Source: Diphasiastrum complanatum
Taxonomy: Eukaryota; Streptophyta; Lycopodiopsida; Lycopodiales; Lycopodiaceae
Assembly (NCBI GenBank): GCA_029204225.1
Contig: CM055102.1
Span: 25,194,780-25,258,779 of the forward strand
Direction: 5' to 3'
Length of the DNA stretch: 64,000 nucleotides
Part shown: positions 7,915-64,000 of the stretch, piece by piece
Layout: each line of letters opens with the position of its first letter
How positions within the stretch are numbered: position 1 is the first letter of the stretch
Made by a program: the position numbers and the translations under genes
The notes under the pieces: generated by a model
Databases searched by the model: none
Told to the model about the DNA's origin: nothing
Seen by the model: only the letters and a program-made list of their open reading frames with translations

Positions 7915-9324
7915 TGTAGGCAAAATTGTCCAGCAAATTCTGGGCATAAGTGCAAGGCCAGATTAGTAGCAAAAGGTTTCTCTCAGAAATCGTGTATAGA
8001 TTACTTTGAGACTTTCTCACCAATTGTGAAAATGACCACCATTCAAGTTCTGCTTTGTTTGGCAGTCTTGTTCAACCTTGAAATACATCAAATTGATGTT
8101 AAAACAACATTTCTACATGGAGTACTAGATGTGGAAATTTTTATGGAGCAGTCACAGGGCTTTGCCAATAAGAATTATCCCAATCATGTGTGTAAGCTCA
8201 ATAAGAGCATCTATGGATTGAAACAGGCTACAAGAGTGTGGTATAAGAGGATTGATTAAGTCAATAGGTATGATACCATTGAATGCCGATTGTAATTGCA
8301 AGAAGGCCCACAACTTCTTATACATGACACTCTTCGTAGATGACTCATTGTTGATTGGGAATTGTGGTAAGCTCATCCAAAAGGTGAAAAGCTTATTGGA
8401 TCATGAGTTTGGAACTAGGTGAGGCAAAGGTTTGTGTTGGCCTGTAGATTGCAAGGAATAGAGACGAAGGAACAATTCTTTTATATCAAAGCAAGTATGC
8501 TTTGAAGATTCTGAGGGACTATGAGATGGAGAATTGCAAGGGCAAAAGTACTCCAACGGAAACACGAGCAAACTTAACATTGGAAGACAGTCCCAAAATA
8601 GAAAAAGAGAAGAAAGAAATAGAATGAATTCCATATAGAAACCTGATTGGGAGCTTAATGTACTTGGCAATGTGCACAAGGCCTAACATAATTACGGCAA
8701 TATACACTCTCGGTCAATTTGGAAATAATCCAGGACCAAAGCTTTTATAGAATGGCAAAGTGGATAGCGCAATATGTCAAGATGACACCACATTATGGCC
8801 TAATGTATAGGCAAAATGCAAATTGTACACTATTACCATACAACGATGTGAGCTAGGCAAATTCTAGAATTGACAACAAGTCAATTTCAGGTGGTTGTTT
8901 CATAATGTGTGGAGCAGCAGTGAAATGGGTTTGCAAAAAAAAATCCCTGGTTGCTCAATCATCCTGTGAAGTGGAGCACATCACAGCATCGAAGAATGCC
9001 AATGAGATTGTCTGGCTTAGATTCTTACTCCAAGAGCTTGGGGTGCTGCAGCAAAAGATCCCACAGTGATAAACATGGATAGCAAGACTGCAATTTGCCT
9101 TATAGAGTATCCATTTTTCTACAGACCAAGCATATACTTTTGAAGTATCATCATGTCAGAGATCTGATCCAGAAGGGGATGCTCATTCCAAGGTACATCA
9201 AATCTGCAGACATGTCTGCAAACATTCTGACAAAGCCATTGTGCCAGCCATCGTTCATAAAGCATCGAATGGGCTTGGGAATCACTACAAATTGTATGAA
9301 TGGTTCCTCGGTTCAAGAGGGAGC
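7915..9324 (+). pseudogene. Copia element C: reverse transcriptase and RNase H remnant
   Basis: The 7894-8259 frame carries the copia RT N-terminal blocks: KARLVAKGFSQ, the 'DYFETFSPIVKMTTI' region, HQIDVKTTFLHG and IYGLKQA. After a stop at 8260 the RT continues in pieces in other frames. RNase H-side landmarks follow: SKYALKILRDYEMENCKG (about 8485-8540), IPYRNLIGSLMYLAMCTRPN (about 8628-8690), and at 9095-9280 the 'KHILLKYHHVRDLI' and 'ADMSANILTKPL' terminal blocks. Gag, protease and integrase are missing at the 5' side. A polypurine tract (AAGAGGGAGC) leads straight into the 3' LTR. Many stops and frameshifts make it non-functional. Confidence 0.85.
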
Positions 9325-9785
9325 TGTTGATGGGTGAACTTCACAACCCTTCAAACCTGCAAACACAAGTGGCAAAACAGTTTACAAGATAGTTAGTAGA
9401 TAAACTAGCTAGTTATTTTCTAACTGTGCTCACAAAAAAAGATTAGGTATAGAAAGTAGGAATACATAGGAGATACGTAGAGCAGAATAGAAAGAAGCAA
9501 GCAGAAAGCAGAGGGAGTTGTAGGAAACACAAAGAGCTTGTTCTTAGGAGACAACAAGAAAATAAGCAGTAGGCATATGTGGCATAGGCTTTCATTTTGC
9601 AACATTGTATTGTTTTTCACATTCCTTTAATTCAAAGTCTGATGGAAACTTAATGAATCTCTGTGTGTTGACAAGTGCAAGTGTAGGAGTCATTTGTAGA
9701 TTGCTGTAATCCCCTGCTTTAAAAGTACTGCTTTGTTTTTTTTGGTTTCCCTCTTGTGTTTTGGGTAGGTTGTTCCTTTTATGCA
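9325..9785 (+). repeat. Copia C 3' LTR
   Basis: It starts TGTTGATGGG right after the polypurine tract and ends ...TTTTATGCA. The right border is set by the neighbour: the minus-strand protease frame of copia D continues cleanly up to its VNFH codons at 9786 and becomes nonsense inside this LTR. The LTR is thus inserted in copia D. Length is 461 bp. The matching 5' LTR is absent, so the target duplication cannot be checked. Confidence 0.65.
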
Positions 9786-59685: not shown

Positions 59686-62165
59686 ATGACTCGCCAGACA
59701 CTTTGTGGCATAGAAGACTCTGCCACATGAACTCAATGGCACTTTACCAAGCAAGCCATCATGGAGTGATAACAGGGGTCAACATCTCGAATGCAACCAG
59801 TTCGACCACCTGTAATGCATGTTTGAAGGGCAAGATGTCACGCACTCCATTCATCAAAGACTCTTACAGAACGACTAAGATTATGGAGTTAGTGCATTAT
59901 GACATCTGCGAACCATTCAACGTGATCTCAGTAGGAGGTTCAAGATATTATATAACCTTCATTGATGACTATAGCGAATTTGCCAGAGTGTATTTTATCT
60001 AGAATAAATCTGAAGCAGTCGATAAATTCATAGAATATGTGAATTGTGTTGAAAGATGTATAGGCAACAAGGTTAAGCAGATCAAGACAGATCGAGGTGG
60101 TGAATACATCTCGAATCGATAAACTAACTTCTGCAATGATCGTGGCATCATTCACAGAAGAACTGCAGCCTAAACATCACAACACAATGGTGTTGCAGAA
60201 AGGAAGAACAAAACCATGATGGAAGCAGCCAGATGCATGATGGCCTACTCGAAAGCTCCAAGGGTGTTGTGGGCTGAAGTAGTAGCTACAATCGCATACA
60301 TCCAGAACCAAACATACAGTCTAGTGTCCCTCATGTGACACCACACGAGCTATGGTGGAGTAGAAAGCCCAATCTGTCTCACATCAAAATCTTTGGTTGT
60401 GCAGCCTATGCACATATTTCTGATAAGCTTCGAAAGAAGCTTGATGAGAAAGCCGAGCAGGGATTTCTGGTAGGTTATGACAACAATTCATCATACTACA
60501 GAATCTACATGCTAGACACGAACACTGTAAAAACAGTGAGAGATGTCAGATTTGATGAGAGCAGGACAATGGCCAACGATGATCCTTTCAGCTACGAAGT
60601 CTTGGAGAGACAGTATTATGACCTGCAGCCAGTGATAGAGGGAGCAGAGGACGAACACGAAAACGAAGATCTTTGAGTCATCTCCCATTCGAACGATGAA
60701 TCAAAAGAAGAAAGATTCGAGAGGTGACCTGTTGCCGCAGTTCTTGTAAACCAAGATGGTTTTGAACCAAGCAGAGCAGACAAAGGCAAAGGCATTACTG
60801 TCCCAGGAGGATTTCCAAAAGGTCGACAAGACCTCGAAGAGTGCCAGCAAGATATGTGCCAGGCAGCTCAGTTTCAATATCAGAAGAGTTCTGCGGATTC
60901 GATGGAGAACCACAGACTTTCGAGGAGGCGATTGACAATCCAGACAAGGACAAATGAATCCAAGCCATGAACGAAGAGATGGAGTCCATGAGGAAGAACC
61001 AGGTATGGATGTTGGAGCCATTACCACATAAGCGCAAGATTGTCAAATGCAAATGGGTTTTCAAGCTCAAATACGGACCAGATAGAAATGTGACAAAATA
61101 CAAGACAAGACTGGTAGAGAAGGGATTCTCTCAGACTACTCTAAAACCTTCTCCCGTGTCGTCAAACATTCGTCCCTATGTTTGTTATTTGCATACGCAG
61201 CAGCTTATGACATTAGGATCCACATTTTGGACGAGAAGACAGTCTTCTTGCATGGCGAACTAGACGAAGAACTCTATATGGATCAACCCCTAGGATTTGT
61301 CTCGAATTCACTTCCTGACTATGCATGCAAAATGCATAGAAGCATCTACAGTCTGAAACAATCAGTCCGACAATGGTACAAGAAGAAAGATCAAGCCCTG
61401 AAATCATTGGGATTCAAGTCTCTGTTGGCTGATTCTAGTGTATATGTCAGAGTTACAGATGGGCAGATTATCATTGTGGCTGTATATGTGAAAGACACTC
61501 TGATACTTTGTAGGAGGGAGCAGCTAATTGCTGAAGTGAAGATAGACATCTTGAAACATTTCAAGATCGTGGATCTGGGAGAAGCCAGGTATTACCTAGG
61601 CTTATAGATTGAAAGGGACTACGAGGGAGGTAAGTTATACCTTCACCAGTCCAGATACACCCTAAAGATCCTAGAGGACTTTGGGATGTTGAACTGCAAA
61701 GGAGCAAATACTCCAATGCTTGTAGGGATGGTGCTAACAAGCGACGACTGTCCGAAGACTGAGGAAGAGAGAGAACAGATGCAGCTCACACCTGACAGGA
61801 AGCTGATAGGATCACTGATGTACCTTGCAGACAACACACGTCCTGATATTGCTCATGTAGTATTCAAGATGAGCCAATTTTGCACATTGGAAGATTGCGA
61901 AACAAATTTTGCAATATCTTTAATTAACAAGGGATTACGGGCTGTATTATTGTCGTGGTGCAGATTTCAGGATACTTTCCTATAGAGATGCTAGTTGGGC
62001 ATCTCTCAAGGATGATTGTAAAAGTGTCTCAGAAAAATACACCATCACATCAGGAGCAGTAGTTCTCTTGGTCAGCAAGAAGCAGACCATTGTAGCCCAG
62101 TCATCCTGCGAAGTAGAGTACGTTGCATCAGCAAAGATGGCCAACGTAGTTCAGGGTGCTTGTGA
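59686..62165 (+). pseudogene. Copia element K: integrase to RNase H, degenerate
   Basis: It starts with GAG-pre-integrase (LWHRRLCHMNSMALYQ...CNACLKGKMSRTPF). The integrase has VHYDICEP, YYITFIDDYSEF, IKTDRGGEYISN and QHNGVAERKNKTMMEAARCM, but stops lie at about 60001, 60121 and 60172. The frame at 60335-60676 gives IKIFGCAAYAHISDKLRKKL. RT starts at 60967 (MNEEMESMRKNQVWMLEPLP), shifts frame near 61140-61180, and continues at 61182-61607 with HILDEKTVFLHGEL and SIYSLKQSVRQWY; its catalytic box is VAVYVKDTLILC (KD for DD). RNase H-side blocks at 61686-62150: TPDRKLIGSLMYLADNTRPD, KKQTIVAQSSCEVEYVASAK. No LTR is visible. It breaks off at about 62165. Confidence 0.9.
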
Positions 62166-63836
62166 TTTTGCAGGTATTAGCAGGGAAGCATTTGCAACAA
62201 TATTTAAACTAATTAGAGAAGCTTTTAAGCAAGTTCAAATTAGAAAAGTCCCAATCTCTAGGACATATCACTTGAAGAAAGAGAGGGATACATTAAACAT
62301 AGGTATGCATAAGATCACTAGAACTCCATTTCATATTGAGGTGTATGAAACTGATGGAAGATCGATATTCTATAATTCATCAAACAATTTATTTGTTGAT
62401 CTAAATTACTTGCTGAGATACATCATCACATTCTATGATATAACCTATGAAAAGGTGAATGGCAAAATAATCATAGTACTTAAGTTAGATGACTCTCATG
62501 AATGGTGCTCTATCACAAACAGAGAACCAAGAAGATTTCAGATTCAGTGTCTAGTCAAAAAATGATATATGGTGGTTGGCAATGTTTCAAGTAACTAGCC
62601 TCATTATTACATTACATTCATTGAATAGTATTAATACATCGTAAATTAAGTCTGATTAATTTTTTTGGACAGGTGCTAAAAGAGGATCATGATATATTAT
62701 CATGGATATTCTCAAGGACATCTTATCCTAGAATCATCAAGGACCATATGGATGGAGGACTTCTCAATGTTCCAGGAGTTGGAGACTTCAATGTTGAATG
62801 GCACTTAGGAGGTGATTTGAAAACATTGAAATGTATGTATAATGTCTCTCACGGTGCTACATCAAAACACCCTTCTTTGTACTGCATGAAAATGGCAAAA
62901 GATGTAACTAGGAGTACATGAATTACTAGAGAATATGTAGATCCAAACTGGAAGCCTGTGCTGTCTATCCCCTTAAAAAATGTGCATGTTTGCGCTCTTC
63001 ATGCAGAAGTTAGATTAATAGAAAAGATCATTTATCTTCATATAGTAAGCCAGCATCATTAGCAAAGGAAGCTATCTCTCGATTGGAAGATATTTAATCA
63101 AAAGCAGGACTCCATAAAGGACATGTCAAAATTCAAAAAGATGAAAAGCTTTCAGAAAGAATGGGAACATGTCAACTAAACCAAGCATAGGAGGAGCAAA
63201 AGCACGTCGTTTCCTATCAAATCATACTGGTAGGGCTTCTAATATTCAACACTCAGTCTGGACATATATTATTGCTGCTACTCAGGACTTCAAGAAAGAT
63301 GGCAAAACCATAATACTAAAAGTTGATGTATGGAAAAAGCTTGATAGTATGATTGCTATTTTAAGAAAAGAAAAATACTCTGATATTGATAAAAAAAAAG
63401 CTGTCCAAAGGACTTGTGTTGAGTTTGTTAATGCAATATCAAAAACATGGGGAGATGATCACATCACTCATTACATGAGTAGTATTAAATTCTTAAAATG
63501 CTTTCAATTTTCATATATATTTAGATCCAAACATAAGACTAACATTATGATTTTGACATATGCAGCACATAATAAGAGATCATACAACGTTTTTTGCAAA
63601 TACATATGGAAGCTTGAGTGTATGGTCATCACAAGGGATGGAGAAGTCACACTGGCAAGCACGAGCAGCATTTCATCGAAATACACAACATGGAGGAACC
63701 AATGAAAAACAAAACTACATTTGTCAATTGTTTCAATGGTTCTACTGCAGAGTTCAGATTCGAAATATAACAAAGTCCACACAATACAACAAGTTTAGAA
63801 AAGCATGCAAGTTCATACAGGAAGAGAAAATTAGAT
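62166..63836 (+). pseudogene. broken member of an uncharacterised GGDxK protein family, fused to copia K
   Basis: In phase with the copia K tail, a new sequence begins at about 62166 (REAFATIFKLIREAFKQVQI) and runs to a stop at 62563. A likely intron acceptor TTTTTTTGGACAG lies at 62660-62672. The next piece (62673-62921) has GVGDFNVEWHLGGDLKTLKC, then HPSLYC. After a stop, VHVCALHAEVRLIEKII is at about 62980-63030; the 63169-63705 frame has VWKKLDSMIAILRKEKYSDI and WGDDHITHYMSS. A last frame (63560-63838) has FANTYGSLSVWSSQGMEKSH and FHRNTQHGG. This order (GGDxK, C..C, LHA..R..EK, H.TxYMH, YGSL...S.QG.E) recalls an amplified protein family I remember from some invertebrate and fungal genomes. 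The recall is unverified. At least three lesions; a pseudogene. Confidence 0.5.
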
Positions 63837-64000
63837 GATTGTTGAGTAGAAGATCATCATTGTCATCAAATCATGACATGTTCAAAATTGATTTGCAAAT
63901 TCAATGAACAAGGAAAGAGAAATACTCAATGTAAATGTATTGACTGTATTATACCAAATACAAAGTGTCAAATATTCATTATTAGATCTTGTGTCAGATT

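Follow-up and report, generated by a model that had tools for sequence, protein, structure and literature searches.

The origin of RAG1 is usually told through the animal Transib and ProtoRAG elements, and the RAG1 residues D708, C727, C730, H937, H942 and E962, together with the 5-base-pair (bp) target duplications of RAG and Transib, form the background to a plant element described here, a remnant of which lies at the 3' end of a 64,000-nucleotide stretch of the genome of Diphasiastrum complanatum (Lycopodiopsida; assembly GCA_029204225.1, contig CM055102.1, positions 25,194,780 to 25,258,779 of the forward strand; the whole stretch is called the window, and position 1 is its first base). 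The CMCT transposon lineages have C(2)C and H(3-4)H motifs, mostly 5'-CA..TG-3' ends and target duplications of 2-5 bp; in the same source ESTA makes TA target duplications and was detected as RAG1-like, Lanisha is given as an EnSpm-like lineage with citation of a Repbase report by Maumus, McDaniel and Carey, and EnSpm, Mirage and Chapaev also have C(2)C/H(3-4)H (PMC12730594). Cut-and-paste transposition that leaves no target duplication is described for Spy, of the PHIS group, which has AAATTT targets and a transposase related to Harbinger (PMC4482050). In Dothideomycete fungi, a hAT transposon captured the host histone H3 and amplified it (PMC6710886).

We conclude, at a probability of about 0.82, that the window holds the remnant of a high-copy cut-and-paste DNA transposon that has a predicted DDE transposase of the RAG1/CMCT type, carries an H3-like cargo gene and inserts without duplicating its target. 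The window copy itself (62147-64000) appears to be a dead, doubly truncated and inactive remnant.

The transposase gene, its copies and their ends

A first-pass annotation made from the window's letters had described copia protein sequence that continues in frame into four pieces of an unrelated, broken protein. The open frames and motifs that it reported are all present; specifically, the longest plus strand open frames in 62165-63850 are 186, 132, 98 and 93 codons long, and a frame of 186 codons or more arose in none of 1000 first-order Markov shuffles of this region. The pieces are exons of one repeated gene, which is laid out in the window as follows.

62147..62590, plus strand: transposase exon A (3' part), in which the first of the predicted catalytic Asp residues is at 62488-62490 ('LKLD'); aligned with L033-L051 and family 2
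62591..62672, plus strand: intron 1, donor ..CAA/GTAACT, acceptor TTTTTGGACAG/GTG
62673..63477, plus strand: transposase exon B, with the second predicted Asp at 62814-62816 (HLGGD), a zinc motif at 62874-62885 and LHAEVRLIEK near 63000; ends in HITHYM
63478..63565, plus strand: intron 2 (88 bp), separating HITHYM from YGSLSVWSSQGMEKSH; spliced, HITHYM-HIIRDHTTFFANTYGSLSVWSSQGMEKSH
63566..63838, plus strand: transposase exon E, with zinc His at 63566-63568 and 63581-63583, the predicted catalytic Glu at 63641-63643 and the stop at 63836-63838
63839..64000, plus strand: transposon DNA 3' of the transposase; similarity within the family extends roughly 1,065 bases beyond the end of the window (L032:5065)

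This intron-containing gene has its motifs in the order D...D...C(2)C...H(4)H...E, and the string H-x8-GS-x3-W-x3-G-x-E is present a single time among the 127,996 residues obtained by translating the window in six frames. Two of the breaks between the annotated pieces are the introns listed above. For intron 1, the donor GTAACT is observed in all five copies that matched the search string, out of 10 given, and a second family (see below) is continuous across the site with no intron (WWIAAFEVPKES versus WWLAAFQ/VLKEDH). HITHYM and YGSLSVWSSQGMEKSH, which had been listed in that order, are held apart by intron 2. The donor GT of this intron is lost in the window copy; seven of the eight other copies listed have GTTAG there and one has GCTAG, and all eight have the acceptor ATGCAG. 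A genome-wide search for the spliced junction, as expected of copies that lack intron 2, gave no matches. The remaining breaks, both in exon B, are a stop codon (62919-62921) and a shift of frame around 63060-63145; they are read through by other copies, indicating decay of the window copy. This copy also has a short internal deletion in exon A after the 'LKLD' Asp, and its zinc motif reads SLYC where seven of eight copies listed have PCLYC. The 'GGDxK' that had been taken as a family motif is likewise particular to the window copy, as most other copies listed have HLAGDLK and the second family has HLAADLK. In the L045 copy, the 3' part of exon A, exon B and exon E are all still open, and these three parts together constitute the family-1 transposase as compared here.

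When the 82-residue piece 62673-62918 was searched against the window's own genome (1.74 gigabases), whose copia content fits a plant, it gave 7524 first-look candidates, a term used here for genome search prehits, which are not all confirmed and of which only a subset was scored; 150 were scored here, and every one of them is a match, with 91-99% identity. Twenty copies were collected by their exon B match with about 5 kilobases (kb) on each side. Exon A is present in 20 of these and exon E in 18, with the pieces in the same order, so the proposal that the four pieces belong to one family holds. Beside a family-1 copy we also observed a second family (L045, turned, 1-2729; also L052, G000:C1:98548200-98550800), with 5755 first-look candidates in the genome, of which 150 were scored at 89-100%. 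The transposases of the two families are 39.7% identical over 448 residues with the motif order kept. Common to both are KLDExEIVKG, HLA(G/A)DLK...C(2)C, (L/M)HxE(V/L)R, GGAK(A/S)R, HITHYM-H-x4-H and YGSL..W..QGMEKSH, and family 2 has one intron that is absent from family 1 and lacks one that family 1 has. L052 has lost the second Cys (FCIYS), which the family-2 copy of L045 retains (FCIYC), and a 191-codon open frame lies 3' of the family-2 transposase (L045, turned, 2115-2687). Families of this kind could account for tens of megabases of the genome, which matters for annotation; this figure is a rough upper estimate for family 1, from 7524 first-look candidates at up to 9.4 kb each.

The first-pass annotation had suggested looking for terminal repeats, and inverted repeats of about 31 bp are found at the ends of copies. 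The same 5' end, CATTAGAGGAGTTCTCAATATC, is observed in nine of the 20 collected copies; of the matches to its first 301 bases (1772 first-look candidates), 40 were scored and every one starts at base 1. The 3' end of L042 is the reverse complement of the 5' end, the two being identical by eye over 31 bases (CATTAGAGG...CCTCTAATG), such that the element ends are CATTAG...CTAATG. A 24-nucleotide scan of the repeat was exact at eight of nine 5' ends, with one mismatch in the ninth, and likewise exact at the single 3' end analyzed. Ends at C2:29752455 (5') and C2:29743085 (3') are on the same strand and bound a copy of 9,371 bp, in good agreement with a manual estimate of 9.4 kb made from copies that overlap one another. 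The complete element is thus about 9.37 kb long, with inverted repeats of about 31 bp that start 5'-CATTAGAGG. Shorter copies with both ends are L042 (5,410 bp) and C2:78010079-78015442 (5,364 bp). Position L033:8952 was rejected as a 3' end because in other copies the sequence runs on past it. A single region of about 270 kb (G000:C7:60128262-60399853) contains five of the 40 3'-end matches that were scored, which suggests a local duplication or a nested array.

Insertion was analyzed at empty sites by seeking the two flanks of three insertions joined elsewhere, with the gap allowed to vary and a reversed pattern as control. For L042, all three matches have the exact join; since the control gave two matches in this case, the three places were checked by alignment, which confirmed both flanks at each of them. 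With the 9,371-bp copy, one of two matches is joined exactly, at a locus that aligns to both flanks over 99 columns, while the other match has extra bases; the control gave none. For the third copy (C2:78010079-78015442), the join is exact in 18 of 18 matches, as counted from pattern matches, and the control again gave none. Both flanks were thereby verified at four empty places in total. The exact joining of the flanks indicates that insertion is precise and makes no duplication, with a target-site duplication of 0 bp at each of the three insertions tested, whose sites are CTGC^ATTT, ATGT^TCAT and TAGG^AGTT. It also rules out a CATTAATG target with a TA duplication. Two further candidate insertions (C4 and C11) had no 5' end at the guessed place, and an end pair on C10 was dropped for its wrong order. 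An ordinary plant gene, the outcome that the first-pass annotation had set against its own proposal, is ruled out by the very many copies, the inverted repeats and the empty sites; the idea of a highly copied, possibly transposon-encoded gene is largely supported by these repeats and precise insertions.

The element is possibly of the Lanisha lineage, and it is a serious if minority prospect that a superfamily already described, Lanisha or else ESTA, is represented here by a member from a further species. Some authors of the Repbase report on Lanisha work on the moss Ceratodon. The CMCT zinc ligands C(2)C and H(3-4)H, placed between the second D and the E, are present as PCLYC and H-x4-H in family 1 and as FCIYC and H-x4-H in family 2 (L045), and the 5'-CA..TG-3' ends are present as CATTAG...CTAATG. 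Set against this, the 2-5 bp target duplication of the CMCT lineages and the TA duplication of ESTA, as given in that source, have no counterpart in any of the three insertions.

Genes carried with the transposase

An H3-like open frame begins about 5.8 kb from the 5' end (L033) and is about 340 codons long in the longer copies. Its first third has a histone H3 fold (Pfam PF00125, E 4e-28; best PDB matches to H3 chains, E 5e-24), and the protein has an N-terminal tail as well as a C-terminal extension of about 190 residues or more (L039:522-1439, minus strand; 8463-9380 when turned). The frame is found in nine of the 20 collected copies, one of them partial, and several copies are truncated earlier. 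A tenth H3 match (L047:9683-9793, minus strand) is a separate fragment, with 57% identity over 37 residues, that lies beside a truncated family-2 copy. Genome-wide, the frame gave 6812 first-look candidates, of which 150 were scored at 86-100%. H3 and element-end positions were matched by hand on the same strand among the matches listed, so that the counts are lower bounds: H3 lies downstream of 5' ends at at least four places (C22:14833881, C8:10968189, C1:60110116 and C8:29161435) and upstream of 3' ends at at least six (C17:32368113, C10:35030445, C558:19737, C20:40923352, C20:26687038 and C2:12256064).

Two further genes lie on the minus strand. The first, an acidic frame roughly 320 codons long, contains a C-x2-CNKKC motif (CPYCNKKC in L035), is seen at 6666-7589 of L046 (turned) and at L035:6670-7641, and had no Pfam match of note. 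Its ratio of nonsynonymous to synonymous polymorphism (pN/pS) is 0.47 in its own frame, the lowest of six (others 0.63-0.78; 14 copies), where a non-coding 5' stretch of the same copies gives 0.46-0.82 across six frames; note that pN/pS values are weak tests here, on copies that are mostly dead. The second gene is near the 3' end (L034:8477-9715; L042:8591-9088). The only Pfam match of its spliced start, a query joined from the exons of two copies, is BAH (E 0.024, profile positions 2-120 of 121), at 14.9 bits relative to a curated cut-off of 30.8, and its product is perhaps BAH-like.

The fungal precedent raises the question of whether the H3-like gene is a host gene that was captured once and is carried as a passenger with no role for the element. 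We regard this as doubtful. A published case exists of a hAT transposon that captured histone H3 and amplified it (PMC6710886), and the selection test is weak, with the non-coding 5' stretch also reaching down to a pN/pS of 0.46. A passenger is nonetheless at odds with amplification of the same order of magnitude as that of the transposase exon (6812 versus 7524 first-look candidates), with divergence from H3 as judged against PDB chains rather than host H3 genes, with the long extension of its own, and with a pN/pS of 0.42 in its own frame that is the lowest of six (others 0.52-0.86; 5 copies). A phrase-based literature search for transposon-borne histones found no paper.

Resemblance of the transposase to RAG1

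The first-pass annotation had likened the motif order to that of highly copied genes in some animals and fungi; the animal parallel compared here is RAG1. Exon E contains H-x4-H-x8-GS-x3-W-x3-G-x-E as does mouse RAG1, the letters of which were verified against PDB. The spacing from the second zinc His to the Glu is 20 residues in both plant families and in mouse RAG1, and the GS, W and G positions are common to all three. Smith-Waterman comparison with mouse RAG1 gave scores of 64 for family 1 and 66 for family 2, relative to shuffled means of about 29 (standard deviation 5), and these scores were reached by none of 5000 shuffles each. With a longer segment of the RAG1 core, the scores of the two families were reached by one and none of 3000 shuffles, respectively.

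Several results weigh against this likeness, and against our overall conclusion more generally. The link to RAG1 consists of about 60 C-terminal residues and the motif order, and hhalign picks the same RAG1 segment at a probability of only 16.5% (P 0.0015). Neither a HzTransib fragment (score reached by 1948 of 5000 shuffles for family 1 and 149 for family 2) nor a BbRAG1L fragment (118 and 3140, respectively) gave a clear signal. Mouse RAG1 scores 76 against the same HzTransib fragment (none of 5000 shuffles), indicating that on this segment RAG1 resembles Transib more closely than it does the plant protein. A search of PDB by hmmsearch with a three-row profile gave no RAG1 or transposase match, and Pfam scans (cut-offs E 1, E 1 and E 0.5) matched no RAG1 or transposase model. 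As for constraint, the collected copies exhibit none that is clear on the transposase exons by pN/pS, with an own-frame value of 0.58 for exon A (0.59-0.70 in the other five frames) and 0.66 for exon B (0.41-0.85 in the other frames), and a second way of averaging gave the same picture. Finally, the 9,371-bp copy is known from its ends, and its exon B and H3 are absent among the matches listed. Given the mixed RAG1 results, we call the transposase RAG1/CMCT-like, and not a proven member.

Other searches added little. A PDB search with the window pieces and a PHROGs search gave nothing useful for the transposase; weak Pfam matches (among them Tsp45I, Sgo0707_N1 and DUF4923), all below cut-offs and with E values no better than 0.005, were taken as chance, as was a single 17-residue match (L001) in viral and prokaryotic contigs, which gave no usable relative. 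No RAG2-like gene is present among the element frames scanned with Pfam.

These data also bear on whether the transposase is that of an ordinary EnSpm/CACTA, hAT or other known superfamily, with a RAG1 likeness that reflects convergent zinc-site geometry. EnSpm, Mirage and Chapaev share the C(2)C/H(3-4)H arrangement in the source cited above and the profile searches did not return RAG1, both of which would fit such an origin. Yet no Pfam transposase model matched, the ends are not CACTA, there is no target duplication, and the RAG1 match covers the GS, W and G positions besides the ligands. We therefore consider a known superfamily unlikely.

The copia join and the element among known transposons

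Upstream of the transposase gene the window has the following features.

59690..62146, plus strand: degenerate copia-type pol fragments in open frames, ending at the join; the copia identity is that of the first-pass annotation and the left limit was set by eye
62146..62147, no strand: copia/transposon breakpoint; family copies start at 62147, and it is crossed only by the window copy and one identical duplicate

In 25 of 28 fetched loci, besides the window and its duplicate, family sequence starts at 62147; in the remaining three it starts at 62150, 62172 and 62485. Since family similarity starts at 62147, 'VVQGACDF', which had been assigned to copia, belongs to the transposon gene (family text 'TIVQGACDFAGISREAY'), and copia stops before it, at about '...YVASAKMAN'. 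A 1-kb query across the join (61648-62647) was searched against the same genome and 40 matches were scored. Two of these cross the join, namely the window and a 100% identical copy on the same contig (C11:41525193), whereas 17 start at query base 500-502 and 21 stop at 496-500, covering the copia side. This indicates that copia and the gene are separate repeats that were joined by rearrangement and later duplicated. The two chimera copies (G000:C11:25255952-25259197 and C11:41524718-41527963) are 16 megabases apart on one contig and are 99.3% identical over 2.8 kb, with 100% identity over the 1-kb join region, as expected of a recent duplication. The run-on into the gene that was first described is thus real insofar as the frame is open across the join, and the join is a private breakpoint from a later rearrangement, at which an open frame does not by itself indicate a functional fusion. 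A functional fused protein, which the open frame and the double occurrence of the chimera might suggest, is ruled out for practical purposes: the join is private to two places among 40 scored, their identity over 1000 bp makes one of them probably a recent duplicate, both partners are broken, and an open frame is expected in about one third of joins anyway.

For the transposon itself we envisage that the transposase would bind the inverted repeats and cut the element out, and that both ends would be joined to directly opposite target phosphodiesters. Such zero stagger would give the observed lack of target-site duplication. The products of the H3-like gene and of the minus-strand genes, one of them perhaps BAH-like, probably aid the element in chromatin, for example in escape from silencing, and the copia join would have arisen later by rearrangement. 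Going further, we tentatively suggest that the element could represent a new superfamily of plants, probably early-diverging ones, in which a RAG1-like DDE transposase with zero stagger is combined with a chromatin kit, made up of a dedicated, long-tailed H3 variant and a BAH-like reader, that keeps copies active or targets insertion and so yields thousands of copies; this is a speculative extension. A RAG1-like transposase that has reached so high a copy number in a plant genome would widen the known range of this type of enzyme and provide a natural contrast of staggered versus blunt joining. A transposon with its own diverged H3 would also make it directly testable whether a mobile element changes the nucleosomes on its own copies.

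Relative to the described systems, the element can be compared with RAG1, Transib and ProtoRAG, with which it shares the predicted order of D, D, C(2)C, H(4)H and E and the GS....W...G.E pattern. It differs from RAG1 in having 20 residues from the second Asp to the first Cys, one more than the 19 of RAG1, and from RAG1 and Transib in the absence of a target duplication. This absence also distinguishes it from ESTA, which has TA duplications and is otherwise similar in C(2)C and H(3-4)H, in its 5'-CA..TG-3' ends and in its RAG1-like detection (PMC12730594). EnSpm/CACTA elements are unlike it in that its ends are CATTAG rather than CACTA, it makes no 3-bp duplication and it has no Pfam transposase match. 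Cut-and-paste insertion with no target-site duplication is shared with Spy; however, Spy prefers AAATTT, where the three sites found here differ from it, and has a Harbinger-related transposase (PMC4482050). Finally, the fungal hAT is also a DNA transposon that amplifies a histone H3 sequence, but there the sequence is host H3, whereas here the H3-like protein has diverged and has a long extension at its C terminus, and the transposon that carries it is of an unrelated type (PMC6710886).

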